Origin: Diaphorobacter sp. HDW4A
Lineage (GTDB): Bacteria > Pseudomonadota > Gammaproteobacteria > Burkholderiales > Burkholderiaceae_C
NCBI RefSeq assembly: GCF_011305995.1
Contig: NZ_CP049910.1
Location: 1 to 64,000 of the forward strand
Length of the DNA stretch: 64,000 nucleotides
Reading direction: 5' to 3'
Shown here: in pieces, positions 1 to 12,086 of the stretch
How positions within the stretch are numbered: the stretch's first letter is position 1
Layout of the letters: each line of letters begins with the position of its first letter
Program-made: the position numbers and the translations under genes
The notes under the pieces: model-generated
Told to the model about the DNA's origin: nothing
The model's input: only the letters and a program-made list of their open reading frames with translations
The model's database searches: none

Positions 1-369
<369 letters not shown>

Positions 370-852
370 TCAATCGAAAATCCGGTCTGGCAGAACGCCG
401 GATTCCAGCAGCTCGGGTAGATCGTCGGGGCCGACTATGAATGACCCTTGCACGCGTGCCTTGGCCACTTTTGTCGGGCCAGCGTTAGGGCCAGCGCAAA
501 CGAACGCGAGATTCTGTGTCACTGTCTTTACAACCTTGAGCCCGGCGGCCGTGGAATCAGTTTCCAGCTGCGCACGCAATGCCGATGCGAAGCCGGTGAA
601 AAGAATGTTTGGGCGCTGTGCCTCGGGTGCGGCCTTGATGAGCTTGGGAGGCGGACCGCTGTGTGGCTCTTTCAGCGCTGATGCGCTGCCGTTGAGGTAT
701 TCGGTGATTCGATCCTTGCGGAAAGTGCGTGGTGCGCCGTTCGACTCCAAGTCGTTGCCAACGATGTAGTGACCTTCCTCTGCCCAATTGATGACTTTGC
801 GCAGTTTGGTTTCGCCATCACTGTTTTTGTACAGAAATTCAAGTGTTTCCAT
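370..852 (-). CDS. Small phage protein: WYL-like N-terminus plus BRCT domain
   Basis: A 160-residue protein of two parts. Residues 1-55 have the spacing of a WYL/SH3-like ligand-binding fold: an opening strand with Y8, then a GHYIVGND strand, then an R-F-R-K-D-R-I segment. Residues about 80-155 match a BRCT domain: an NILFTGF opening strand, a helix, the KVVKTVTQNLAFVCAG strand-turn-strand, and a second helix rich in Ala and Lys. BRCT domains bind DNA ends or phosphoproteins and are best known from NAD-dependent DNA ligase. The start has AGAGGG about 6 bases upstream. It lies beyond the repressor gene and points the same way, so it may be expressed in the lysogen. The BRCT call is fairly firm, the WYL-like part less so, and the role is unknown. 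Confidence 0.7.
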   Translation of the reverse strand: METLEFLYKNSDGETKLRKVINWAEEGHYIVGNDLESNGAPRTFRKDRITEYLNGSASALKEPHSGPPPKLIKAAPEAQRPNILFTGFASALRAQLETDSTAAGLKVVKTVTQNLAFVCAGPNAGPTKVAKARVQGSFIVGPDDLPELLESGVLPDRIFD

Positions 853-898
853 AAGCCCTCTTTTTGTAGTCTGATGAACTGTGGCCGGAGATCATTCG

Positions 899-1591
899 TC
901 AAAACCTTCTGCCGTTGAATCCGTAGACGATCCGGCCGCAGATCCGCACCTGGTGCTCGCCGTTGAGCACGTCCACGGTGCGAACGTTCGGGTTGTCGCT
1001 TGTTACCTCGTGACGGCCGTCCATGCGCTGGGTCACGCGCTTGATGAACAGGCGTTCATGGGCTTCCAGCACATAGATGCCATCCACATCGGCTGTGATT
1101 TTGTCTGTGTCGCATATCCCGAAATCGCCGCTTGCGAGAGTGCCTTGCATGCTGTCCCCAAGCTGATGAATGATGCGCAAAGCCTCGGGGCGGGAGCTGG
1201 GTAGGTAGCGGTCAATCCACTTGAGCGACATGGGGACGTCGCCCATGATGATTTCTTCGGACACCAAGTCATTTCCAGGCCCCATGCTGGCAACTACGTT
1301 GAGGCGTGGAATAAGGATCGTGTCTTCGCTGGAGATTGGCGCAGGTGCGGGGCCGGTCAGTGAGCCTTTGGTGCGCGAGCCGGTGACGATGTAATGCACA
1401 TCAAACCCAAGCGCCTGAGTTGAGGCGAAAAATTCAACCTTTGGCGAGGTCACGCCGTTTTCCCAGCCGTAGATCGTTCGGGAAGGCATATCGCCAAACT
1501 TGGCGACATCAGCAACGGTTAGATTCAGTCTCTCCCGTTCTTCTTTGAGTCTCTCGCCAATAACAGCGCGAATTGGTGATGTTTCGCTCAT
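899..1591 (-). CDS. CI-like phage repressor, XRE HTH plus S24 peptidase
   Basis: A 230-residue lysogeny repressor. Residues 8-68 form a Cro/CI-type helix-turn-helix (ADVAKFGDMPSRTIYGWENG). Residues about 95-228 are a LexA/S24 domain with the nucleophile in GDSM (Ser147) and the general base Lys184 in LFIKRV. It would bind operators between itself and the divergent early operon and keep the prophage silent. In LexA-type relatives RecA-stimulated self-cleavage occurs at an Ala-Gly bond before the catalytic domain. Here the corresponding stretch is ASMGPG, with Met103 before Gly104, so cleavage may be weak or absent. The adjacent antirepressor module offers another way to inactivate it. The start codon is the first ATG and has only a weak purine-rich leader. 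Confidence 0.9.
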   Translation of the reverse strand: MSETSPIRAVIGERLKEERERLNLTVADVAKFGDMPSRTIYGWENGVTSPKVEFFASTQALGFDVHYIVTGSRTKGSLTGPAPAPISSEDTILIPRLNVVASMGPGNDLVSEEIIMGDVPMSLKWIDRYLPSSRPEALRIIHQLGDSMQGTLASGDFGICDTDKITADVDGIYVLEAHERLFIKRVTQRMDGRHEVTSDNPNVRTVDVLNGEHQVRICGRIVYGFNGRRF

Positions 1592-1717
1592 TGAGTGAAA
1601 AACTTTTCTCTAAAAGATTGCAAATTGCCAAAATTAGCAATATCATCGGCGCAAGAACATATAGCACCGTCTAACACGATGGTACACACACCGCGACACA
1701 GCGGGGAGGCTTGGCAC
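1592..1717. promoter_or_regulatory. Divergent repressor/early promoter-operator region
   Basis: This 126-base gap separates the leftward repressor from the rightward early operon and is the natural place for lysis-lysogeny operators. It holds an inverted repeat ATTGC-N8-GCAAT at 1624-1641, with a further ATTGC at 1617-1621 and a TTGCAA palindrome at 1618-1623. CTCATTGAG, a short palindrome, overlaps the repressor start. The stretch is richer in A/T than its surroundings. Which repeats are bound is inferred. Confidence 0.55.
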
Positions 1718-1918
1718 ATGACTTTTGATAACCGTGACCTTGTGCGCGATAAGCGCTACACGATCCGCGCTCAATCCGCGACGGACGAGGTGATCCGGAT
1801 GGCTGCAGAAATGACGGGCGTGCAGCCATCGACGTTCATCCACGATTCGGCGCTGCAGCGTGGGCTGGAGTTGATCCGCCGTGCGCAGGAACAGCAGGGG
1901 CAAAAGAGCAATGCCTAA
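1718..1918 (+). CDS. Small RHH-like (CopG/DUF1778-type) early phage protein
   Basis: A 66-residue protein and first gene of the early operon. A strand KRYTIRAQ is followed by two helices (ATDEVIRMAAEMTG and VQPSTFIHDSALQRGLELI), the layout of ribbon-helix-helix DNA-binding proteins and TacA-type antitoxins. The ATG at 1718 is preferred over an upstream in-frame ATG at 1595 because GGGAGG lies 8 bases before it and the upstream extension would cover the operator. It faces the repressor gene, so a Cro- or Cox-like role is plausible. No partner toxin with an acetyltransferase signature is present, which argues against a toxin-antitoxin pair. Confidence 0.65.
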   Translation: MTFDNRDLVRDKRYTIRAQSATDEVIRMAAEMTGVQPSTFIHDSALQRGLELIRRAQEQQGQKSNA

Positions 1919-2222
1919 GCCGCTTTTTGCAATTCATTCAGGCGCTGCAGTGGTGCCTGCGGTGCGCGAGCCGCCGCAGACGCCGAAGCGCACACGAAGG
2001 CGGCAACGCAAACAGGGGTCGGCTCACCATGTGGAGAGCACACCGCAACTTGAGGTCGTACTGGACCACTTTTGTGCGCTGTGGAAAACGAATGACAGGC
2101 GGGCCGTGCTTGAACGACTGTTCGAAGAGCAGCTAAAAGCAGGCTTTCATGAAATGGCAGGGCTCCGGCAGGGGCCGCGACTGATCGTAGACAACACACT
2201 GCCCAAAGGGCGCAAGGGGTAG
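1911..2222 (+). CDS. Hypothetical early phage protein
   Basis: A 103-residue basic protein starting at an ATG that overlaps the 3' end of the previous gene by 8 bases, which suggests translational coupling. The N-terminal 40 residues are rich in Pro, Arg and Lys and look disordered. The C-terminal part has two amphipathic helices (QLEVVLDHFCALWKT and RAVLERLFEEQLKAG) and then a short basic tail. I do not recognise a family. Its position in the early operon suggests a regulatory or replication accessory role. Confidence 0.55.
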   Translation: MPKPLFAIHSGAAVVPAVREPPQTPKRTRRRQRKQGSAHHVESTPQLEVVLDHFCALWKTNDRRAVLERLFEEQLKAGFHEMAGLRQGPRLIVDNTLPKGRKG

Positions 2223-2225
2223 AGG

Positions 2226-2516
2226 ATGCAGGCAATCAATCAACCAATTTCGCGCGATGCATTTCGCGGACTGGTGCAGCGCAATAAAACAGCGGGCCGC
2301 CTTGCCGGTCGCCCAGCGAAGCCGGAGCGCGACAAGGTGGTTGCATCGGGCATGCATCTGTACCCGGTCGATCTAGAGCGCGCAAAGCGCGTGGCTGAAA
2401 TCAAGGACCGATCCGTTTCCTATTACATGCGAGTGTCGTTCCTCAAGCAACTGGCCAAAGACGAAGAAGAACTCGGCATTGCAGAGCAGCAAAAAGCTGC
2501 TGCCGAGCCGCTTTAA
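2226..2516 (+). CDS. Hypothetical early phage protein, possible RHH fold
   Basis: A 96-residue protein beginning 3 bases after the previous stop. Residues about 18-35 are basic (AGRLAGRPAKPERDK). Residues 40-75 (a GMHLYPVDL strand, a helix with AKRVAEIKD, then SVSYYMRVSFLKQL) have the strand-helix-helix order of ribbon-helix-helix proteins. The tail is acidic and helical. This would be the second RHH-like protein of the operon. The family assignment rests on pattern only. Confidence 0.55.
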   Translation: MQAINQPISRDAFRGLVQRNKTAGRLAGRPAKPERDKVVASGMHLYPVDLERAKRVAEIKDRSVSYYMRVSFLKQLAKDEEELGIAEQQKAAAEPL

Positions 2517-2540
2517 AGCGCAAGCCAACACCGCCAACGA

Positions 2541-2987
2541 ATGACAGATAAGGCCTCCACCATGCTGACCACGAATGCAGAAATGCAGGCGCTGAGCGCC
2601 GCACAGCCGCGCCGCGAGCGTGTGAGCCATCAGGGCCGCAAGCTGCGCATGGAGGGCACGCGCATGGCATGCGCGCATTGCAAGGCCTCGGCCGAGATCC
2701 GCACATCGGCAATGCTGACGGTGACGATGCGCGAAACCATCTACCAATGCACCAACGTGGAATGCGGTCACACCTTCGTGGTGGCCAGCGAGGTGGTGCG
2801 TACGTTGTGCCCGAGCGCTACACCTGACCCCACGGTCAATATCCCCCTGTCCACTCACGTGCGCCGCGACATGCTGCGCGTGGTGCTGGACAACGCAGGC
2901 GAGGCCGCCCATGTGGCGCGCTTCACGCTGCCCGTGACTGGCGACCTGTTCGCCGGTGGAGCGGGCACGGCGGGCGAGAGCAGTTAG
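2541..2987 (+). CDS. Ogr/Delta-like zinc-finger late-gene activator
   Basis: A 148-residue member of the Ogr/Delta family, which in P2 and P4 phages activates late structural operons by recruiting host RNA polymerase. The family's metal site is visible as CAHC (C-x2-C) near residue 45 and CTNVEC (C-x4-C) near residue 70, separated by a strand-rich segment with MRETIYQ. After the finger comes LCPSATPDP, then a C-terminal region with VRRDMLRVVL, longer than the roughly 72-residue P2 Ogr. Its presence implies that late operons exist on this element or on a helper phage. A start further in (2562) cannot be excluded. Confidence 0.85.
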   Translation: MTDKASTMLTTNAEMQALSAAQPRRERVSHQGRKLRMEGTRMACAHCKASAEIRTSAMLTVTMRETIYQCTNVECGHTFVVASEVVRTLCPSATPDPTVNIPLSTHVRRDMLRVVLDNAGEAAHVARFTLPVTGDLFAGGAGTAGESS

Positions 2988-3104
2988 CCCGAACCGCATA
3001 GCCGCTGAATAGCAGCGGCACCAATCAAAACCAGTTGATGAATTTGCAAGGCGCGTTTGCGCCGGGCAGGGACTTTTTTTGTCCGAATTTTGGAGGAAAT
3101 GCAG

Positions 3105-3638
3105 ATGAATGCCGAAACGAAAACGCGCGAACCGGCGGGCGAGATCGGTTTGTTTGTCACGCTCACGTTGCCAGCGAAGTTCTATCCGAACCAAAGGGGT
3201 GTGGGTGGAAAGCTGATTGACAACCCGTTTTTTGATGGGTCAAGCCCATTGAGCGGTCATGAATGGCTGCGGGTGTTGTGGGGCAAGGTGCGTGCAGCAT
3301 TGGCTCGCAATGGTGTGCGCATGCACGGACTCCGTTATGTGGTGCCGAATTTTGACGGTGTTCCGCAATGGAGTTTGATTGCGTGGGTGCGCTCTGATGA
3401 GGACGCCAGAGTGCTGGAATCGGTTACGCGCCATTACTGGCTTGCGAGTGCGGGTGCTGATGGTTCGCGGATCGGTGCGAATGTGGAGCGCTTAGAGCCG
3501 GGCTGTGCGAGCCGCTACATGAACGCATACGCGGATGATGTGCTCGGCGATCAGGCGGTGATCGCGTGGGCAGCCACATGGGGCGTTCGGTTGACTGGTC
3601 GGTTTGGATTTTCACGGACTGGCGAGGTGCTGTCATGA
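3105..3638 (+). CDS. Truncated gpA-like Rep paralogue lacking HUH histidines
   Basis: A 177-residue protein that aligns along its length with the central nuclease domain of the full replication endonuclease encoded 600 bases downstream. Both share GLF-TLTLP, the WLR--W-K-R block, the M-GLR strand, RHYWL and WAATWG. The full protein has the metal-binding HWH (H400, H402); here the same place reads QWS (88-90). The Y-x3-Y pair (Y138, Y142) remains, but the lysines around it are lost. It lacks the long N-terminal and C-terminal parts of Rep. ATG 3105 is chosen because GGAGG lies 8 bases upstream; ATG 3099 is too close. Probably catalytically inactive, it could regulate or compete with Rep. A decaying duplicate is the alternative. 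Confidence 0.75.
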   Translation: MNAETKTREPAGEIGLFVTLTLPAKFYPNQRGVGGKLIDNPFFDGSSPLSGHEWLRVLWGKVRAALARNGVRMHGLRYVVPNFDGVPQWSLIAWVRSDEDARVLESVTRHYWLASAGADGSRIGANVERLEPGCASRYMNAYADDVLGDQAVIAWAATWGVRLTGRFGFSRTGEVLS

Positions 3639-3814
3639 GCGCCGCATTCGTCATGACATGGTGCGACGCCGATGGCGTGCAGTGCTCGCAGCCGTTGGCT
3701 GCGCGCACATGGGCGGCGGCGTGGGATGCTGCATTCAGCGTGGCTGAGGGCAAGGGCTGGGGTGCCTGCTGCCGCTTTGCCGTGGGTCGTTCTGGTGCGA
3801 AGGGTCGTGCATGA
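3635..3814 (+). CDS. Small hypothetical phage protein
   Basis: A 59-residue protein whose ATG overlaps the stop of the Rep-like paralogue as ATGA and whose own stop overlaps the next start the same way, so the three genes look translationally coupled. The sequence is rich in Trp, Ala and Cys (MTWCDADGVQC, RTWAAAWDAAF, WGACCRF). No family is recognised. The coupling is the main evidence that it is a gene. Confidence 0.55.
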   Translation: MSAAFVMTWCDADGVQCSQPLAARTWAAAWDAAFSVAEGKGWGACCRFAVGRSGAKGRA

Positions 3815-4248
3815 ACAAGGCCGAGCGACTGGCGATTGCGGATGACCAGATCGAGCGCATCCGAGCGCGTGAAATCGAGCGCCATAAGCAGCGCATGGAG
3901 GGCATTGACCGCATGGCCAAGCGCCTGCGCTCGGGCAGTGCCAAGGGCATCACGGCGCGCGATGAGGCGCTGCTGCGCCTGTGCGAGCTGAGCGACGAAT
4001 ACACGGCGCAGTCCACCGAGGGGCGCTTCAACGATTCGGCCTCGCGCGAGTGGAAGAGCATTCCGCTGAACTGGCGCGCCAACATGCTTTTGCGGGCCGG
4101 GTTGGGTGTGGGTCTGGAGAATCTGGACACACTCGCGGCGCGCAACTGGTTCGAGATGCCGCCGCCGGAGCGCAACGCGGTCAGCGGGCAGATTCGTGAC
4201 GCGAAGCGGTATTTCAGGGGCCTGGTGGCCCTGACGGCGCGGGTGTGA
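3811..4248 (+). CDS. Hypothetical phage protein upstream of rep
   Basis: A 145-residue, mainly helical protein. Residues 1-50 are strongly charged (IERIRAREIERHKQRMEGIDRMAKRL) and likely form a long helix or coiled coil. The second half contains an LRAGLGVGLENLDTLAARNWFEMPPPERNAVSGQIRDAKR segment (described in parts, not a motif I can name). It overlaps the previous gene by ATGA and the rep start by GTGA. The tight packing suggests a function tied to replication initiation, for example an accessory factor or a translational-coupling partner. That is inference from position. Confidence 0.6.
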   Translation: MNKAERLAIADDQIERIRAREIERHKQRMEGIDRMAKRLRSGSAKGITARDEALLRLCELSDEYTAQSTEGRFNDSASREWKSIPLNWRANMLLRAGLGVGLENLDTLAARNWFEMPPPERNAVSGQIRDAKRYFRGLVALTARV

Positions 4249-6404
4249 GCATGCGCGCGCCCATCGTCATCCAATCGGCCGGTGATCCTGCATTCGAGGC
4301 GTTTTGCCGCGAGAAGGCGGAGATGTACGCGGCGCGTGCGTCGGCCGCTGCTGCGGTGGTGGATACCGCTGCTGATGACGCTGCGCGCGAGGCGATTAAG
4401 AAGGCTCTCAAGAGTCTGAAAAGCGAAGAAGCCGAAAAGTCCGGACGGGGCGAAAAGCTCGCCCCCCTGCTGCGCAAATTGCCCAATGGCAGCTTGGCTG
4501 AATGGGAGCGCGACAAGCCGCGCCTGTTCGTGGCGCGCGGTCACATGGAGCGCGTGATTGCGTGCGCACCGAAGATGTGGCGGGCTGCAATCCGTGCGCG
4601 CCTGGACGGCGGGCCGACGATGTTCGAATCCCAGCAGCCAGAGTGGGCGGACGCGTGGGATTTGATGCAGGCCATTGGGGAGTTCGATGATCGCTTTGGA
4701 TCGGCAACGCTGTGGAATCTGGCGGACTATGAGATTCGCGACATGGCCAAGGGATTGGCCGCGCAGGCCGATGAGCTGGAGGCGGTCACGCTGGCAGATG
4801 GTGGCGATCAGGCGGCGTGCGTGGACAGTATCCGCATGTTGGTGCGTGCCGTGGGTATTGCCGAGGACAAGCCCATCAAGGGCATGCCAGCGGTGCGGCG
4901 CGCACAGGATGCGCAGTGGTGGCGCAAGGCGCTACGCGTGCATGTGGCGCGCATGGTGGAGGCGGGTGCTGTGGGTTTGGGTCTGGTGCACAAGGGGCGC
5001 GGCGGTTATGTGAGCGCAGAGGGCTTGCAGCGGCGCCAAGAGCAGATCAAGCGCAACGCCGAAACGCTGAGCCGCACGCTGTTCCGCAATGAGGCGGGGC
5101 AGGCCTACAGCCTTGCGGAGCTGGCCGCGCTGGGCACGTCTAACCCGATGGTGCGCGGCGGCGAGCTGATGACGCGCATTCGTGGCGCGGAGGAATATGC
5201 GGATTCGCACGGGCATGTGGGCCTTTTCCTCACGCTGACGCTTCCGAGTCGCTTCCACCCGGTGAAATTGGGCAACGGCGGGCGGCCCATTCCGAACAAG
5301 AAGTTTGTACCGGGCACTACGCCGCGCGATGGTCAACTGTGGCTGCGCGGCATGTGGCAAAAGCTGCGCTCTGATGCGGCGCGCAAGGGCATCAAGATGT
5401 ACGGCCTTCGCGTGGCCGAGCCGCACCACGACGCTACGCCGCACTGGCACGCGCTGGTGTGGGTGGAGACGGAAGCGCAGGCGCTGAAGCTGGAAGAACG
5501 CATTCGGCACTACTGGCTGAGCGACGACGGCGACGAACGCGGCGCGGCTGAAAACCGTGTGAACATCAAACGAATGATCAAGGGCGGTGCCGCTGGCTAC
5601 GTGGCCAAGTACATCGCCAAGAGCGTGGGCCATATCGCGCTGGCCGAGCACCAGGACGTGGTCAACGGTGACCAGATCGCGATGGATTTCGGTGACCGTG
5701 ATGAGGCAGATGTGCAGGAATCCGGCCAAGGTTTCCGGCGCGTGGATGCGTGGGCGGCGACGTGGGGCATTCGCCAGTTTCAGACCATCGGCATGCCGAG
5801 CGTCACCGTGTGGCGCGAGCTGCGCCGCGTGTCGAGCGATCAGCTGGAGCTGTTCGCGCGCGAGGGCGACAAGGCCACGGTGCGTGCGCACAGCGTGTGC
5901 CATCGGCATGGCGCATTGCGGGCCGACTGGCGCGTGTTCATGGAGGCGATGGGCGGGCACGCGTGCAAGCGCCATCAATGGCATCTGCGCATCGCGAACC
6001 GCACGCCCGAGGTGGGGCAGGCGAACAAATACGGCGAAGAGGTGCGCGTGGGCCGCATCGTGGGCCTCAAGGCCCAGCGTGGCCGCATGCGTGGCCACAT
6101 GCTGGTGAGCCGCCGCATTGCGTGGTCACCCGTGGTGCAAGAGCACACACATGCTGCGGATGTCTCGGCATCCACGGAAGTGCAAATCACCAATGCAGCA
6201 GGACAGGCGCAGGGCACGGGCGAGCCCGCGTCCCGCGAGGCTTTGCCTCGCGCTTGGACTGGTTTCAATAACTGTACGGCCCGCCTGACCGGCGAGCTGC
6301 GCGATCAGCTTTTGGGCCGTGAAGGCCCCGATGCAAGCGAGTGGGTGACCCCTGAAGCGGTCAATTTCTTCGCCGCCATGCATCGAAAGAGGAAATGGGA
6401 CTGA
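4245..6404 (+). CDS. P2 gpA-like replication endonuclease (HUH, rolling circle)
   Basis: A 719-residue relative of phage P2 protein A (Phage_GPA family), which nicks the phage origin, stays joined to the 5' end through a tyrosine and starts rolling-circle replication. The N-terminal 300 residues are helical and charged. The nuclease core begins at GLFLTLTLP (about 326), has the HUH metal site in PHWHALVW (H400, H402) and the paired tyrosines in YVAKYIAK (Y452, Y456). A C-terminal region of about 200 residues follows WAATWGIR. It starts with GTG overlapping the preceding stop; ATG 4251 is an alternative start. P2 carries its origin inside gene A, so the origin here may lie within this frame, but I cannot point to it. 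All key residues are present, so this copy should be active. Confidence 0.92.
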   Translation: MSMRAPIVIQSAGDPAFEAFCREKAEMYAARASAAAAVVDTAADDAAREAIKKALKSLKSEEAEKSGRGEKLAPLLRKLPNGSLAEWERDKPRLFVARGHMERVIACAPKMWRAAIRARLDGGPTMFESQQPEWADAWDLMQAIGEFDDRFGSATLWNLADYEIRDMAKGLAAQADELEAVTLADGGDQAACVDSIRMLVRAVGIAEDKPIKGMPAVRRAQDAQWWRKALRVHVARMVEAGAVGLGLVHKGRGGYVSAEGLQRRQEQIKRNAETLSRTLFRNEAGQAYSLAELAALGTSNPMVRGGELMTRIRGAEEYADSHGHVGLFLTLTLPSRFHPVKLGNGGRPIPNKKFVPGTTPRDGQLWLRGMWQKLRSDAARKGIKMYGLRVAEPHHDATPHWHALVWVETEAQALKLEERIRHYWLSDDGDERGAAENRVNIKRMIKGGAAGYVAKYIAKSVGHIALAEHQDVVNGDQIAMDFGDRDEADVQESGQGFRRVDAWAATWGIRQFQTIGMPSVTVWRELRRVSSDQLELFAREGDKATVRAHSVCHRHGALRADWRVFMEAMGGHACKRHQWHLRIANRTPEVGQANKYGEEVRVGRIVGLKAQRGRMRGHMLVSRRIAWSPVVQEHTHAADVSASTEVQITNAAGQAQGTGEPASREALPRAWTGFNNCTARLTGELRDQLLGREGPDASEWVTPEAVNFFAAMHRKRKWD

Positions 6405-6490
6405 TGAAAAACCCCGTAAACCAACCCAAGGCGGGCGCCAGCGTGGGCGCTCGCGAGCCGATCAACCACCAGAGCAAAGGAGTGATGACC

Positions 6491-6712
6491 ATGAACGCCA
6501 AACGAACCGAGCCGCGCGTGCATTGCTTTCGCCGTGCCATCGCTGGCGACTACGTGCCCGCCGCGGGCACCACGGCGAACCATCTGGCCAGCGTGTTCGC
6601 CGCCGAGCGCGCACGCCTGGCGGCCGAGGCCAAACCCAAGCGCGGACGCAAACCGCGCGCGGTGGAGGTGCCGCCCGAACAAGGCGAGCTGCGCCTGGTG
6701 CATGCGGCCTGA
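6491..6712 (+). CDS. Hypothetical small basic phage protein
   Basis: A 73-residue protein with a patterned Lys/Arg-rich stretch (KPKRGRKPRA) that resembles an AT-hook-like or nucleic-acid-contacting segment. The start at 6491 is preferred because AAAGGAG ends 8 bases before it; an in-frame ATG at 6404 overlapping the rep stop would add 29 residues. The N-terminal part (HCFRRAIAGDYVPAAG) has no recognised motif. It continues the early operon. Confidence 0.5.
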   Translation: MNAKRTEPRVHCFRRAIAGDYVPAAGTTANHLASVFAAERARLAAEAKPKRGRKPRAVEVPPEQGELRLVHAA

Positions 6713-6756
6713 TCCATTCATCAACAAACCAACCGATTCAACCGAGGACCTGCGAA

Positions 6757-6969
6757 ATGAACCCATCCATTCACACCATCACCGAAACGCACAGCTACCG
6801 CGCGGTGCTGCTGCCCGACCACGTGCCCGCGCAAGACGTGGAGGCGCTGGCCGACGCCCAGCAACTGCCCACCATCCGAGTGCGCGCGGCCAACGCAACG
6901 CACGCCACCACCAGCGCCGCGCGCGTGACGGGCAGGAACGTGCTGCGCGTTGAGCGCGTGGAGTGCTGA
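6757..6969 (+). CDS. Hypothetical small phage protein
   Basis: A 70-residue protein with alternating strand-like segments (SYRAVLLPDHVP, LPTIRVRAANA, NVLRVERVEC). It ends 3 bases before the DUF4406-like gene, in the same direction. I recognise no family. Spacing in the operon and high-GC codon use like its neighbours are the evidence that it is coding. Confidence 0.5.
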   Translation: MNPSIHTITETHSYRAVLLPDHVPAQDVEALADAQQLPTIRVRAANATHATTSAARVTGRNVLRVERVEC

Positions 6970-6972
6970 GCG

Positions 6973-7269
6973 ATGCGGATCTACGTTGCTGGCCCCATGA
7001 CGGGCCACCCCGAGTTCAACTACCCGGCGTTCCACGCGGCGGCCGCCGAGCTGCGCGCGGCCGGCCACCATGTGGAGAACCCCGCCGAGAACCCGGATCC
7101 GGCGTGCAAGAGCTGGGCGGGCTACATGCGCATGGCGATTGCGCAACTGGTGACGTGCGATGCCATCTACCTGCTGCACGGCTGGCGCGCGAGCCGCGGA
7201 GCGCGCATCGAGCACGATCTGGCCTGCGCGCTGGGCATCGATCGGCAATTCGAAACCCCGAAACAGTGA
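6973..7269 (+). CDS. DUF4406-like, nucleoside-deoxyribosyltransferase fold protein
   Basis: A 98-residue protein opening with IYVAGPMTG, followed by NYPAFHAAAAELRAAGH, a VENPAENPD loop, and CDAIYLLHGWRASRGARIEHDLACALG. This order matches DUF4406, a small relative of nucleoside 2-deoxyribosyltransferases common in phages; the conserved GPM, the W-x-S-x-G-A segment and the Glu in IEHDLA are all present. Relatives are thought to act on nucleosides or nucleotides, but phage members are largely uncharacterised. Family membership is well supported, the substrate is not. Confidence 0.8.
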   Translation: MRIYVAGPMTGHPEFNYPAFHAAAAELRAAGHHVENPAENPDPACKSWAGYMRMAIAQLVTCDAIYLLHGWRASRGARIEHDLACALGIDRQFETPKQ

Positions 7270-7278
7270 GAGCAGGTT

Positions 7279-7481
7279 ATGGAACAGATCATCTTTACCA
7301 AAGAGCAATTGCTGGAAGAGCTGGGCATCGTGGAAAACACCCTGCGCGCCATGATCGAACACAACGGCTTCCCCACCCGCGCAAGATGCGCGCGAAGCTG
7401 TTCTGGCTGGTGTCGGAGGTGATGGAGTGGCTGAGCGCGTGCCCCAAGGCGTGGGGCGGGGCGCAGGACGCTCATGAATGA
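7279..7481 (+). pseudogene. Frameshifted AlpA-like HTH regulator (possible excisionase)
   Basis: From ATG 7279 the frame reads MEQIIFTKEQLLEELGIVE and continues to EHNGFP, then leaves homology and stops at about 7420. One frame over, from about 7375 to the stop at 7481, the sequence reads PRKMRAKLFWLVSEVMEWL, the usual second half of AlpA/MerR-like winged HTH proteins (typical pattern GFP-P-K--R--FW-VSEV--WL). One missing base in or near the CCCC run at about 7369-7374 would restore a product of about 67 residues. Such proteins act as excisionases or activators of integrase promoters. It may be a real mutation, a sequencing error in a C run, or a frameshift-expressed gene. Loss would hinder excision of the element. 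Confidence 0.7.
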
Positions 7482-7588
7482 TCGAAACATGGAACCAAAT
7501 GGGGGCGAGGTACACAAAACTATCCCCATTTGATACACTGGTCTGGCCTCGAAAGAGGTGGAGCGTAAGAACTCCTTGGATAAGCGGA

Positions 7589-7619
7589 AAACCGCGCCCG
7601 ATAGATCAGCGGTTTTTTT
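7589..7619 (+). terminator. Rho-independent terminator behind the early operon
   Basis: AAACCGC at about 7589-7595 pairs with GCGGTTT at 7609-7615, followed by an unbroken T run to 7619. It would stop early-operon transcripts just after they have copied the upstream pair of boxes and before the C4-like RNA. Confidence 0.75.
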
Positions 7620-7664
7620 GCGCCCGGACATTGCACGCCTGTACTTTTGCAGGCGATTGATTTA

Positions 7665-7745
7665 TGGCCGGGAGGGCGACGGATAAAAGACCCGCAAGGG
7701 GAAGAAGTCCGCCTGGCTTATCCCAGGTTCTTAACCTCCCGGCCA
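7665..7745 (+). ncRNA. C4-type antisense RNA candidate
   Basis: A perfect 11-bp outer stem (7665-7675 with 7735-7745) encloses about 60 bases with two inner hairpins: CCC-GCAA-GGG at 7691-7700, within a GAC/GTC extension, and CCTGG-CTTATC-CCAGG at 7712-7727. The size (about 80 bases), the outer stem and the position just upstream of an antirepressor gene fit the C4 RNAs of phages P1 and P7, which repress antirepressor synthesis by base pairing. Two unpaired stretches match the downstream mRNA: CTTATC (7717-7722) with GATAAG (7794-7799) at the ribosome site, and GTTCTTA (7727-7733) with TAAGAAC (7762-7768). The Rfam family assignment is from memory of its layout and needs a covariance-model check. 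Confidence 0.75.
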
Positions 7746-7758
7746 CCTCGTGGGCGGT

Positions 7759-7802
7759 GCGTAAGAACGCTGCTCACGAGACTTCACAGTCTCGATAAGG
7801 AG
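7759..7802 (+). promoter_or_regulatory. Antisense target and ribosome site of antirepressor mRNA
   Basis: GCGTAAGAAC at 7759-7768 and GATAAGGAG at 7794-7802 carry the two boxes complementary to the C4-like RNA. The second overlaps the Shine-Dalgarno sequence AAGGAG, 6 bases before the ATG at 7809. Between them a hairpin (GAGACT at 7778-7783 with AGTCTC at 7788-7793) would bring the boxes together. Pairing with C4 would block ribosome entry. Confidence 0.7.
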
Positions 7803-7808
7803 CGTTCC

Positions 7809-8492
7809 ATGTCGCATTCCGCCTTGGCATTTGTGCCCTCTCTCGCCGTTGTCGACGGCAAACCCACTACCACAAGCATTGATGTTGTGCGTCACTTCGG
7901 CAAGCAACATCGCAACGTGCTGCAAGCCATCCAGAACTTGATTCCTCAGCTCGATGCAGAGCATGCGCTGAATTTTCAGCAGATGGTCGTTGATGTTCAG
8001 ATCGGCAGTGGTGCGACGCGCAAGGATGTGGCATATCGCCTAGCGCGCGATGGCTTCACGCTGCTGGCGATGGGGTTCACCGGAAAGAAGGCGCTCCAGT
8101 TCAAGCTTGGCTACATCGACGCCTTCAACCGCATGGAGGCAAAGTTGCATGGCGGTGACATCGATCTCGAGCAGATCAATCGCGCGTATGCCTTCGCTTC
8201 GGAAGTTGCTGCGAACACTGCACGTGCAGCGTTTGAGTGCATGCTGACGGGCAATGTTGATGACTGGCGCAACATGCGATTGCTGGTCAGTCCGGTGCCG
8301 GACGGTGATCGGTCGTCAGTGCGCGTGACTCGAGTTACTAACGACGCACTAGTGCTCAGCTTGGCGCAGTTGCCGGGTTATTTGATGGATGAGGCGTCGA
8401 TGGTAAGCAATGCGCAGTTGGCAGGGGTGGCTGCCGCGTGCAATAACCAGCTCATGAGAAGAATTTTAGATGTGGGCGAATGTCAATCTTAA
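7809..8492 (+). CDS. Rha-family phage antirepressor/regulatory protein
   Basis: A 227-residue protein. Residues about 20-115 match the pRha domain: TSIDVVRHFGKQHRNVLQAIQNL, then a central strand region, RKDVAYRLARDGFTLLAMGFTGKKALQFKLGYIDAFN (motifs GFTLLAMGFTG and K--Y---FN). Rha and relatives act as antirepressors or lytic-growth regulators of temperate phages. Residues 120-227 form a different C-terminal region without a recognised fold (no ANT or KilA-C signature evident). The strong AAGGAG site sets the ATG at 7809 and overlaps a C4 antisense target box, so translation is probably gated by that RNA. Its likely target is the S24 repressor encoded at the other end of the early operon. Confidence 0.88.
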   Translation: MSHSALAFVPSLAVVDGKPTTTSIDVVRHFGKQHRNVLQAIQNLIPQLDAEHALNFQQMVVDVQIGSGATRKDVAYRLARDGFTLLAMGFTGKKALQFKLGYIDAFNRMEAKLHGGDIDLEQINRAYAFASEVAANTARAAFECMLTGNVDDWRNMRLLVSPVPDGDRSSVRVTRVTNDALVLSLAQLPGYLMDEASMVSNAQLAGVAAACNNQLMRRILDVGECQS

Positions 8493-8521
8493 TTACAAAG
8501 GAATTTGATATTTTTTTGGGG

Positions 8522-9109
8522 TTAAACAGTTGGCGGGCATTCCTTTTTGCTGGTTGTAATTTTAGTGACTAAATCCTGGATGGATATTCTTGGGTGGTTC
8601 TCGAGTATGAAGTATGGGTAGCCGTACTTGGAATGCTTTGGGGTGGGCAATTCTGCGCAACGGCGACTAGTACCTTTAGCGGGTGATTTTCGAGGTGTCA
8701 GGCTGATAATCCCTATGAATTTGCACTGCCCTGATTTCCAATGGCCGTGAAGAGTTAATAGCTCTCTAATCCATCTCAGTAATAGTCTGGCACTCTCTAT
8801 TTGCTTTAAAGCATCCCCCGCAGACCCTTCTGATGATTTCATTTCAATCGCGACGAGGTAGTGATCTTCGCCTATTGTTGTGGCAATGATTCCATCATTA
8901 ACGCTTTTCATTCCTTTTTTTGCATCGGAGAAATGAGGGAATGCGGGCGTGCCAACAATATCAAGTGTAAAAGCGAAGGATGACCCTGCTGACACTTCGA
9001 AGTGGTTATTCTTTGCTCTCGGTTCTTCTATTACCCATAGACCTCCATTGTTATTTAGTTTATATTCTTCTGGTATTATGTCTTTAAATATCGAAGAAAG
9101 AGCACTCAT
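8522..9109 (-). CDS. Small partner of ATPase, PD-(D/E)XK-like signature
   Basis: A 195-residue protein not assigned to a known family. Residues 70-95 read VNDGIIATTIGEDHYLVAIEMKSSEG; D72 and the E89-M-K91 pair on adjacent strands have the D-x(n)-E-x-K layout of the PD-(D/E)XK nuclease fold, and E38 may serve as the upstream acidic residue. A helix follows (ALKQIESARLLLRWIRELL), also usual for that fold. Its ATG overlaps the ATPase stop as ATGA, so the two are coupled. The gene is markedly richer in A/T than the element around it. It is probably the effector of a two-component defence module; no signal peptide or membrane segment is seen. Confidence 0.6.
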   Translation of the reverse strand: MSALSSIFKDIIPEEYKLNNNGGLWVIEEPRAKNNHFEVSAGSSFAFTLDIVGTPAFPHFSDAKKGMKSVNDGIIATTIGEDHYLVAIEMKSSEGSAGDALKQIESARLLLRWIRELLTLHGHWKSGQCKFIGIISLTPRKSPAKGTSRRCAELPTPKHSKYGYPYFILENHPRISIQDLVTKITTSKKECPPTV

Positions 9110-10530
9110 TCATCTGCTCCATTGTCTCCTGACTCCTGATAGGCATAATAAATACGATCACTCGTGTCGTTAAGTGCGTGAATTTCCTCGTCAAAGGTTT
9201 CTGCGTCGATTCCTTCGGTGTCGTTTATAGGCATGGAACTGATTGTTTGATCGTGAAATAGCCATGCGGATATAACTGACGGATTAAGAATTTCCTCTTG
9301 ACTATATTCGAACTGCTTGATTAGTTTCTCTTGAATAGGGGACTTGCGATGCAGCATAACGAGTGAATTTATTTCTCGTACAAGGTAATCGCTGTGTGTG
9401 CTTGCCACCACACGCAGACCTGAATTCACAAGTCTTGCTATTACGCGCGCCATCATTCGCTGATTTGCGGGATGCAAATTTAACTCTGGTTCGTCAATCA
9501 TTAGAACATCGCCAGGTTGAGCGTCAAATTCTAAATATGCCCAAAGTCCAAATAAGCTTTTGACGGTGGATGAGGTGAGGTGTAAATCAAGTTTTGGCGG
9601 TGCCTCAGAACTTTTTCTGGATTTTCTGGGTAAGAAGGTAATGGAGCCTTCAGAGTCAACGTCATATCGACCGCCGATTATTTTTTTTATGCCCTCTGCG
9701 TGATCGTGAAAAGGGCCTTTTTTCTTTTTTCTTGTTTCTGGTAAATCATTGAGCCAGTCGATGTAGTCGGCTATTGGGCGTGCGTAACGAGAAGATACGA
9801 AGTCGTTTATTAATTCAGATAAATTAATCTCTTTGTCTTTTTTAGATGCATGATGCAAGAGTGCGGTGCGACGGCTTGCTAAATCTTTGTAGAAGAGGTG
9901 TAATCCATTCCGCTCCGCTGGAATGAGAAATACGTTTTGCCGGGCAGGAATTCCGATTAGGTGACGTACAATAATTTCGCTCACGAAAAATTCTGAGCCG
10001 GAAAGTGCGGTATTTTGGATGATTTCAACTTTGCTTGAATCAGCCTTTTTGGTGACGCGAATAAATTGATTTTTATCTCGGCCTAACTCTATTGACGAAT
10101 TTAATGGACGCGCGATTGCTTGCTCCAATAAGTTATAGAAGTCTATATCCCAATCAAAGCCGCTGCCTTTGAAAATGTCTGGTGAGCTATTAAACGCTGA
10201 GGGAAGGTTGTCCGCTACTTCTTTGTTGAACAGTTTGACAAATGATCCGCCGTGCTCGAGTGCCCAAAGCTGGAGGTCCCACGTTACGTGTCCCTCCTTT
10301 GCAAGGTCTTTGACGGTCTGATCCATTCCTGGGAGCCGCGGCGTGTGCGTGCGTGACAGAAAGGCGTATAGGGCGTACATCACCCAAGTTTTGCCGGTGT
10401 TGTTTTGACCACAGACGAGCGTAAGAGGTTTGAATTCAATCGCACCGGCGTCTTGAGACAGGCAGCCCAGCTTCTTGGGCCGAAAGCGCCAGCTAACTAG
10501 GTCGAGCCGTTGAGGTGTTTGGTCTTGCAT
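9106..10530 (-). CDS. AAA15-type ATPase of a putative defence module
   Basis: A 474-residue ATPase of the RecF/OLD-like ABC class. The Walker A motif GQNNTGKT is at 41-48, Walker B with the catalytic pair (VLMIDEPELNLHP) near 340-352, and the STHS H-loop segment near 376-380. A middle region has FLIPAERNG followed by a charged helical section, typical of AAA15/AAA21 proteins. No TOPRIM domain follows, so it is not an OLD or GajA nuclease by itself. It is coupled by ATGA to the small PD-(D/E)XK-like gene. Both lie next to the integrase, in the cargo position where P2-like phages often carry anti-phage systems. A/T-rich codon use suggests separate acquisition. It resembles the ATPase halves of PARIS, Septu and AbiL-type pairs, but the partner is different. 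Confidence 0.8.
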   Translation of the reverse strand: MQDQTPQRLDLVSWRFRPKKLGCLSQDAGAIEFKPLTLVCGQNNTGKTWVMYALYAFLSRTHTPRLPGMDQTVKDLAKEGHVTWDLQLWALEHGGSFVKLFNKEVADNLPSAFNSSPDIFKGSGFDWDIDFYNLLEQAIARPLNSSIELGRDKNQFIRVTKKADSSKVEIIQNTALSGSEFFVSEIIVRHLIGIPARQNVFLIPAERNGLHLFYKDLASRRTALLHHASKKDKEINLSELINDFVSSRYARPIADYIDWLNDLPETRKKKKGPFHDHAEGIKKIIGGRYDVDSEGSITFLPRKSRKSSEAPPKLDLHLTSSTVKSLFGLWAYLEFDAQPGDVLMIDEPELNLHPANQRMMARVIARLVNSGLRVVASTHSDYLVREINSLVMLHRKSPIQEKLIKQFEYSQEEILNPSVISAWLFHDQTISSMPINDTEGIDAETFDEEIHALNDTSDRIYYAYQESGDNGADE

Positions 10531-10578
10531 TTCTTGAGGCCGATGTTCTGACAGTAAAAATTAGTTCCGCAATCTTAA

Positions 10579-11808
10579 CTATGTCTCGGTTGCAGCAGCT
10601 TTCGTTGTTTGGTTGGCGAGTGCGCTCAGCGCATAGTCAGCCCACTCCTGCATGATCACAGCGCGCTTTTCCAACATATCGGCGCGCCGGTAAGCGGCCT
10701 CTGTCTTGGTGTCGATGCTGTGCGCAAGGCACAGCTCCACCGCATCGCGCGGGTGGTGCGTGGTTTCTCCGGCCCAATCTCTGAACGTCGAGCGGAAGCC
10801 GTGTGGCACGGCGGCAAGATGGTGCTTGCGCATCAGCACCGTGAGGGCCATATCTGAGAGCGGCCCATTCCTGACAGATGGAAAGACGAATTCTCGATCT
10901 CTGAATGCGGATTGACCTTCGATGATGGCCAGCGCTTGGGTGGAAAGTGGCACGCGGTGCGCGCGTCCTGCTTTCATGCGTTCGGCGGGGATGGTCCACA
11001 CGCCTGCATCAAGGTCGAGTTCTTCCCAGCGCATATAGCGCGCCTCGCTCGAGCGTGCGGCGGTGAGGATGAGGAGGCGAAGGGCTCGGGCGCTTTGGCC
11101 GCCGAACGTGGAAATCTCGCTGTAGACCTTGGGTAAATCATCGAACGGTATCGCTGCCAGGTGTTTGACGGGTGCCACCTTCTTGGGGTTGGGTAGGACG
11201 TGCTGTAGTTGTCCGCGCCAGCGGGCAGGGTTAGGGCCGGATCTGTGGCCATGAGCTGCTGCCCAGTCGAGCACCTGCTCGATGCGACCACGAACGCGCG
11301 AGGCTGTCTCGGTTTTCGTTTTCCAGATGGGGGTGATGCACCGCAGAACGTGCGCAGCATCGATCTCGGAAACGAACACGTCGCCAATCTTGGGGTAGGC
11401 GTACATCTTGAGGGTGTTACGCCACTGCTGTGGATGCTTGGCGTTGCGCCACGTCGATTCGTGCTCTGTGATGTATGCCTCTGCCGCGTCTTGAAACGGG
11501 AGCTGCTTCGCGGCCGCGCGACGTGCGGCCTCGCGCTCGTCGCTGCGTGCTTTGAGTGGGTCTGTGCCGCTGTCTCGCAAGCCCATTGCCGCGCGCGCTG
11601 CTTCTCGGGCGGAGGCGAGAGTCACGGCCGGATAACTGCCGAGGCCCATGCGTCGCCGGTGGTGCATGAACACATAGCGGTAGACCCAGACGCGGGACCC
11701 GCCGATGATCTGTAGATACAAGCCAGTCACGCCGCCGACCGCGTGCGCGCCGTCTTCGCGCAGACGCGACACCTCCAGAGCCGTCATTTCAAGAATTCGC
11801 TTGGGCAT
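10579..11808 (-). CDS. int: P4-type tyrosine integrase
   Basis: A 409-residue site-specific recombinase. Residues 1-85 match the DUF4102 arm-binding domain (LYLQIIGG, WVYRYVF, MGLGSYPAVTLASAREAA). A SAM-like core-binding domain spans about 105-200. The catalytic part has Arg in AARSSEARYMRW, the H-x-x-R motif in PHGFRSTFRDW, the LAHS segment and the nucleophile in TEAAYRR. P4-type integrases usually insert into the 3' ends of tRNA genes. This one starts about 185 bases from the tRNA-Sec 3' end, so selC is the evident attachment site. It runs in the same direction as the defence pair, 48 bases upstream of it. No frame damage is seen. Confidence 0.95.
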   Translation of the reverse strand: MPKRILEMTALEVSRLREDGAHAVGGVTGLYLQIIGGSRVWVYRYVFMHHRRRMGLGSYPAVTLASAREAARAAMGLRDSGTDPLKARSDEREAARRAAAKQLPFQDAAEAYITEHESTWRNAKHPQQWRNTLKMYAYPKIGDVFVSEIDAAHVLRCITPIWKTKTETASRVRGRIEQVLDWAAAHGHRSGPNPARWRGQLQHVLPNPKKVAPVKHLAAIPFDDLPKVYSEISTFGGQSARALRLLILTAARSSEARYMRWEELDLDAGVWTIPAERMKAGRAHRVPLSTQALAIIEGQSAFRDREFVFPSVRNGPLSDMALTVLMRKHHLAAVPHGFRSTFRDWAGETTHHPRDAVELCLAHSIDTKTEAAYRRADMLEKRAVIMQEWADYALSALANQTTKAAATET

Positions 11809-11994
11809 CTCATTTATGGGCCATCACATAGGCCATAAAACATTGATTTGGGGATGAAAGTCGATTGAATGGTGGATGAAGAAATACTGTATATAACACC
11901 ATATATCGCAGCGTAACACATTGATTTTCAACGGTCAATCTGGCGCGTTTGGACATGAAAAAGCGCCATCGTGTGGCGCTATTTTTGGCGGGGG
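11809..11994. other. Attachment-site flank between int and selC
   Basis: An A/T-rich gap. The phage-side arm probably includes the imperfect inverted repeat TGGGCCATCACATAGGCCATA near 11817-11838 and other integrase or excisionase arm sites, none of which can be defined with certainty. The att core should overlap the 3' end of selC (about 11,986-12,020). The other att copy would be left of the window. Confidence 0.5.
11957..11986 (-). terminator. Bidirectional terminator behind selC
   Basis: AGCGCCA (11962-11968) and TGGCGCT (11974-11980) form a 7-bp stem with loop TCGTG. An A run precedes and a T run follows on the plus strand, so it can act in both directions. On the minus strand it lies directly after selC and would end the fdn-sel transcript. 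Confidence 0.8.
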
Positions 11995-12086
11995 CGGAGG
12001 AGAGCAGGAGTCGAACCTACCGACCGCGCGTGGCGCAATCCACCGGGTTTGAAGCCCGGGCGCCCCACCAGGGACGTTTCTCTTCC
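11995..12086 (-). tRNA. selC: tRNA-Sec (anticodon UCA)
   Basis: A 92-base selenocysteine tRNA (95 with CCA, the usual bacterial length). On the minus strand it has an 8-base acceptor arm GGAAGAGA, a D arm GTCCC-TGGT-GGGGC, an anticodon arm CCGGG-CTTCAAA-CCCGG with TCA at 12050-12052, a long variable arm and a T arm with TTCGACT. The 3' acceptor strand is TCTCCTCC, so position 4 (A) faces C and is unpaired; the other seven pairs are intact. CCA is not encoded (GCCC follows the acceptor). The 3' side borders the integrated element, so this end may derive from it. It is the adaptor for the UGA codon in fdnG upstream. Confidence 0.93.

Follow-up and report, generated by a model that had tools for sequence, protein, structure and literature searches.

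The anti-phage system PD-T4-4 was obtained by functional selection in Escherichia coli, in work reporting that each selected system lowered the plating of the phage used for its selection (PMC9519451); according to the same source the E. coli system sits in an element resembling an integrative and conjugative element (ICE). PD-T4-4 has been tabulated under PD(D/E)XK (PF11645), PF13175 and a P-loop domain (PMC10952713). A system called similar to PD-T4-4 by its authors is WonAB of the Vibrio cholerae WASA-1 prophage, which is described as aborting infection and as depending on its two genes together with the ATPase residues and the lysine of the nuclease (PMC12137116). As differences these authors list other inserts and a C-terminal extension in PD-T4-4 and, sometimes, a distinct nuclease; activation of WonAB is reported to stop growth and translation while the chromosomal DNA is retained (PMC12137116). 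Such ATPases are referred to as OLD-ABC (PMC12137116, PMC12839542), their pairing with other nucleases, PD-(D/E)XK enzymes included, is surveyed in PMC12839542, and WonAB is touched upon in a review (PMC12409358). For P2-related phages of Vibrionaceae, an anti-phage hotspot between cI and the integrase gene has been reported (PMC9122126). Here we describe a gene pair at 8522-10530 of the first 64,000 bp of contig NZ_CP049910.1 of Diaphorobacter sp. HDW4A (this 64,000 bp stretch is referred to as the window). We regard the pair, with a probability of roughly 0.87, as a divergent anti-phage system of the PD-T4-4 type that forms part of the cargo of a P2-related prophage at selC.

Both genes are located on the reverse strand, gene A first, its end overlapping the start of gene B in the four bases ATGA. 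Gene A (9106..10530) encodes an OLD/ABC ATPase of the PD-T4-4_A type of 474 amino acids (aa), as judged from the list of open reading frames, Pfam, PADLOC, an AlphaFold2 model and Foldseek. It contains the motifs GQNNTGKT (Walker A) at residue 41, IDEPELNLHP (Walker B) at residue 345 and STHS at residue 377. Gene B (8522..9109) encodes a putative PD-(D/E)XK nuclease of the PD-T4-4_B type of 195 aa (open reading frame list, PADLOC), in which residues 72, 89 and 91 are D, E and K, respectively, and residue 103 is Q. The initial annotation had described an ATPase gene coupled through ATGA to a 195-aa gene with these motifs and with D72, E89 and K91, and all of this was found at the positions it gave. 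Its description of the pair as rich in A/T was equally borne out. The GC content (guanine plus cytosine) of A and B was 0.452 and 0.429, versus about 62% around the pair, and the third-position GC was 44.6% and 39.8%, respectively. Among window stretches not overlapping the pair, the lowest values were 0.545 for the length of A (59,143 stretches) and 0.510 for the length of B (60,817 stretches), so that none was as low as A or B; these stretches overlap each other and are thus not independent. Scans for promoters and terminators yielded about as much as scans of shuffled sequence.

The best PADLOC match of A was PDLC04033 (PD-T4-4_A; 397.7 bits, E = 2.2e-119), which aligned residues 15-465 with positions 2-459 of the 460 in the profile. 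The runners-up were the candidate family model PDC-M47A (281.7 bits) and AriA of PARIS (82.7 bits), with weaker matches also to Old, GajA and PtuA. For B the best match was PDLC04037 (PD-T4-4_B; 52.8 bits, E = 9.9e-15, profile positions 7-159 of 190), a score for which the curated PADLOC cut-off is not displayed. PDC-M47B followed with 16.0 bits, and these two were the only models listed for B at E<=10. In Pfam, PF13175 (AAA_15; 1.4e-22) and PF13304 (1.1e-16) were the sole families above the cut-off for A, which had five hits at E<=1; B matched no family at E<=1. Both proteins fell into PHROGs families that have no known function (A, phrog_13167, 419.3 bits; B, phrog_14491, 69.8 bits). NCBIfam gave for A only hits far below the cut-offs, to ABC transporters and retron effectors, and for B nothing at E<=10.

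At the threshold of the tool, the PD-T4-4_A model fired in 10 of 14 control genomes, and it matched weakly at a third place in the HDW4A genome itself (E = 8.8e-4); the PD-T4-4_B model fired in none of the 14. Since the A model is not specific alone, the family call rests on the scores and on the partner B. The same PADLOC search applied to an Acinetobacter locus (L018), a Malikia locus (L015) and a viral contig (L042) again gave PDLC04033 and PDLC04037 as the best models, with scores similar to those of the window. Judged by profile, the pair is thus of an already described kind. The initial annotation had inferred a new defence system and had listed beforehand an exact match to a named system among the results that would refute it. 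That reading was rejected: with PD-T4-4 models best for both proteins the inference of novelty fails, and the observation behind it, a mobile pair of an ATPase and a PD-(D/E)XK-like protein with an ATPase related to those of PARIS, Septu and OLD, stands. Existing family models already name a divergent, prophage-borne member with a clear nuclease signature.

The AlphaFold2 model of A had a mean predicted local distance difference test (pLDDT) score of 84.3. Its best Foldseek rows were PtuA, Rad50 and retron PtuA; SMC was also a neighbour and OLD stood at rank 37. These neighbours indicate an ABC-type rather than an AAA+ ATPase, despite the Pfam name AAA_15, so that the label 'AAA15-type' first given to A holds for the Pfam family and not for the structural class. 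In the AlphaFold2 model of B, D72 is placed just ahead of a strand (73-79), E89 and K91 are on the next strand (82-91) and Q103 is on a helix (94-120). This order of elements (D and strand, E-x-K strand, helix) is expected of PD-(D/E)XK folds. The fold matches of B were weak; they included restriction-endonuclease-like nucleases alongside non-nucleases (gelsolin, CD73 and acetyl-CoA carboxylase among others). As to the structural check that had been suggested for B, the D-E-x-K residues follow the order of PD-(D/E)XK proteins, and the predicted fold is weakly consistent with a restriction-endonuclease-like nuclease. When the sequences of solved structures were searched, A matched UvrA and OLD weakly, with five hits at E<=0.01; all hits of B were at E = 0.31 or worse.

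Protein searches recovered 727 relatives of A at E<=0.001 among 7995 candidates scored, and 11 relatives of B, the query's own included, from 73 candidates. Among the 120 matches listed, the close relatives of A, of the subclade of the window, were about 58-68% identical. In a scan of viral contigs, 9 of 12 loci had A by profile and in all nine a B-profile gene followed (with A divided between two frames in L045 and L046). In a scan of genome contigs (genome_contigs), a B-profile gene stood directly after A in 9 of 11 loci, the B of L011 being truncated; locus L012 ends inside A. Both scans seek conserved stretches of A, so distant relatives are under-sampled. In L011 (6419-6721) the B frame has 100 aa and lacks the D...ExK segment, and A is full length. 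An archaeal locus, L020, encodes at 6352-6831 a 159-aa partner without a B-profile match, in which D and ExK are spaced as in B; it is either a distant relative or the result of an exchange of partners.

A search with the B model across the class matched 3 of 274 genomes, HDW4A included, and the other two both have A beside B. In one of these (G195, locus L037, 4109-7901) the two matched parts of A are in separate frames and about 1.7 kb of other sequence separates them; the adjacent B is full-length. Across 60 genomes (HDW4A and 59 relatives), A matched in 11; it was full length only in HDW4A, the other ten matches covering 10-24% at E = 3.1e-7 or weaker. With tblastn, A matched three phage records, all of Vibrio, and 38 plasmid records, none with at least 60% identity; B matched no phage or plasmid at E<=0.01.

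For 16 chosen pairs, A and B were aligned: the window, 13 scan loci, one Vibrio phage and genome G236. Left out were the loci with a B remnant (L011), a cut end (L012), another partner (L020) or a split A (L037, L045 and L046), as well as L041 and L044, which by score are near copies of L040 and L043, and L021, which is from the same phage as L022. D72, an acidic residue at position 89, K91 and Q103 were kept in all 16 B proteins, the one in the window included, with E at position 89 in seven and D in nine. In a separate alignment of 18 B proteins, D72, K91 and Q103 were invariant. Conservation of D72, E89 and K91 in homologues indicates that the pattern is more than chance. E-x-K at positions 89-91 and a C-terminal NHPR segment are common to the close relatives that form the subclade of the window B, whereas D-x-K is present in the Acinetobacter, viral-contig and Vibrio phage proteins. 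B shared 29-34% identity with its relatives from Acinetobacter and from viral contigs, and 18% with the B annotated in the Vibrio phage. Identities of A and of B correlated over 120 locus pairs (r = 0.964, shared ancestry uncorrected).

Like PD-T4-4, the locus has two genes on a mobile element, an ATPase gene followed by one for a small PD-(D/E)XK-type protein, a likeness drawn from PADLOC profiles. In contrast to E. coli PD-T4-4 in its ICE-like element, the pair in the window lies between a prophage integrase and a Rha regulator, and its B score is modest. With WonAB, as described in PMC12137116, it appears to have in common a prophage-borne OLD-ABC ATPase with a PD-(D/E)xK-type nuclease, a putative one in the window; WonB is smaller (16.1 kDa, versus 195 aa for B). 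A distantly related pair is present between the CI repressor and the integrase in the Vibrio phages 1.202.O (MG592573.1, Peduoviridae) and 10N.222.45.E8_PE001 (PQ189284.1), and in the second record it is labelled PD-T4-4_A and PD-T4-4_B. There, the order is CI, A, B, integrase; in the window it is integrase, A, B, with B facing the regulator. The A of the Vibrio phages is 27.7% identical to the window A, and their best models are PDLC04032 and PDLC04035, unlike those of the window.

PARIS, Septu (PtuAB) and Gabija/OLD have their ATPase superfamily in common with A. As for the PARIS partner, AriB with TOPRIM or DUF4435, B matched none of the Pfam families at E<=1, and PADLOC listed no AriB model for it at E<=10. 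Neither Pfam nor PADLOC gave an HNH or PtuB match that would make B a Septu partner. None of the five hits that A had in Pfam at E<=1 was to TOPRIM, the nuclease that in Gabija/OLD is fused to the ATPase. The statement that the effector is not a DUF4435 or HNH partner was upheld in these Pfam and PADLOC searches, and the same was seen for TOPRIM.

Could the pair be a separate, unnamed two-gene system of the class that combines an OLD-ABC ATPase with a restriction-fold protein, merely related to PD-T4-4? The low identity of B to its Acinetobacter, viral and Vibrio counterparts, its E-x-K in place of D-x-K and the match of A to PDC-M47 would all fit this, but both genes score highest with the PD-T4-4 models, A with a margin of 116 bits, and L018, L015 and L042 share the same two models at similar scores. 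We consider such a separate system unlikely. An inactive copy in decay, or a pair of phage genes that plays no part in defence, would have parallels in the relatives with a broken A (L037, L045, L046) or B (L011). In the window, however, the frames of A and B are open with their motifs in place and the two prophage copies described below are identical within 8522-10530, which leaves this explanation very improbable.

Slightly less probable still is a toxin-antitoxin-like or prophage-maintenance module in which defence is not the primary role. It would account for two overlapping genes, one of them for a putative nuclease, and overproduction of WonB is reported to be toxic (PMC12137116). However, that toxicity depends on WonA, which according to the authors argues against a simple antitoxin (PMC12137116), and the PD-T4-4 family was discovered, as reported, through protection against phage (PMC9519451).

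A divergent PD-T4-4-type system remains the preferred reading, and the pair is very probably anti-phage. By analogy with its published relatives, the ATPase most likely senses infection and licenses the nuclease B, probably aborting the infection. A dimer of A with shared ATP sites would sense a sign of phage infection and bind the small nuclease B. Once licensed, B would cut nucleic acid. Going by WonB, the target would be the chromosome less probably than an RNA on which translation depends; the infection would be aborted and neighbouring lysogens would survive. It is conceivable, though doubtful, that the subclade of the window is a functionally distinct branch of OLD-ABC plus restriction-fold systems in P2-related prophages, with a trigger or substrate other than those of WonAB and E. 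coli PD-T4-4. The linked alignments of A and B indicate residues worth mutating.

The pair had been placed between an antirepressor and an integrase. This location proved correct, with a Rha-type phage regulator (Phage_pRha, PF09669, 1.4e-23; 7647..8492, forward strand, convergent with B) as the 'antirepressor' and a tyrosine-type integrase of 409 aa (PF00589, PF13356, PF22022; 10579..11808, reverse strand). The integrase stop codon lies 48 bases ahead of the start of A on the same strand. The prophage is P2-related as judged by one protein, its gpA-like replication initiator (4245..6404, forward strand; PF05840, E = 2.9e-63; phrog_91). It is integrated at selC, the tRNA-Sec gene to the right of the integrase (11993..12086, reverse strand); the two genes beyond it are presumably selB and selA. 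The 3'-terminal 18 bases of selC (11993-12010) are repeated at the opposite end of the prophage in each of its two copies. The copy at selC is about 39.7 kb and comprises window positions 1-12013 and the end of the contig (G000:C1), so that it spans the contig end and starts inside selC. None of the five congeneric genomes searched had a match to A, which fits a recent gain.

The second copy is present in the same genome at G000:C1:2961092-3000813, with 99.836% identity over 39,748 alignment columns. The 65 differing columns consist of 1 substitution and 64 gaps, none within 8522-10530. One gap is of 12 bases and the others are of one to three bases, mostly single; they crowd near the contig end. 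These gap differences suggest uncorrected errors of sequencing, not divergence. ARAGORN found no tRNA near either end of the second copy (L004, L006), and its attachment core is altered at the integrase end; together these look like integration at a secondary site. Within the prophage, the window also holds a DUF4406 / nucleoside deoxyribosyltransferase-like gene at 6973-7269.
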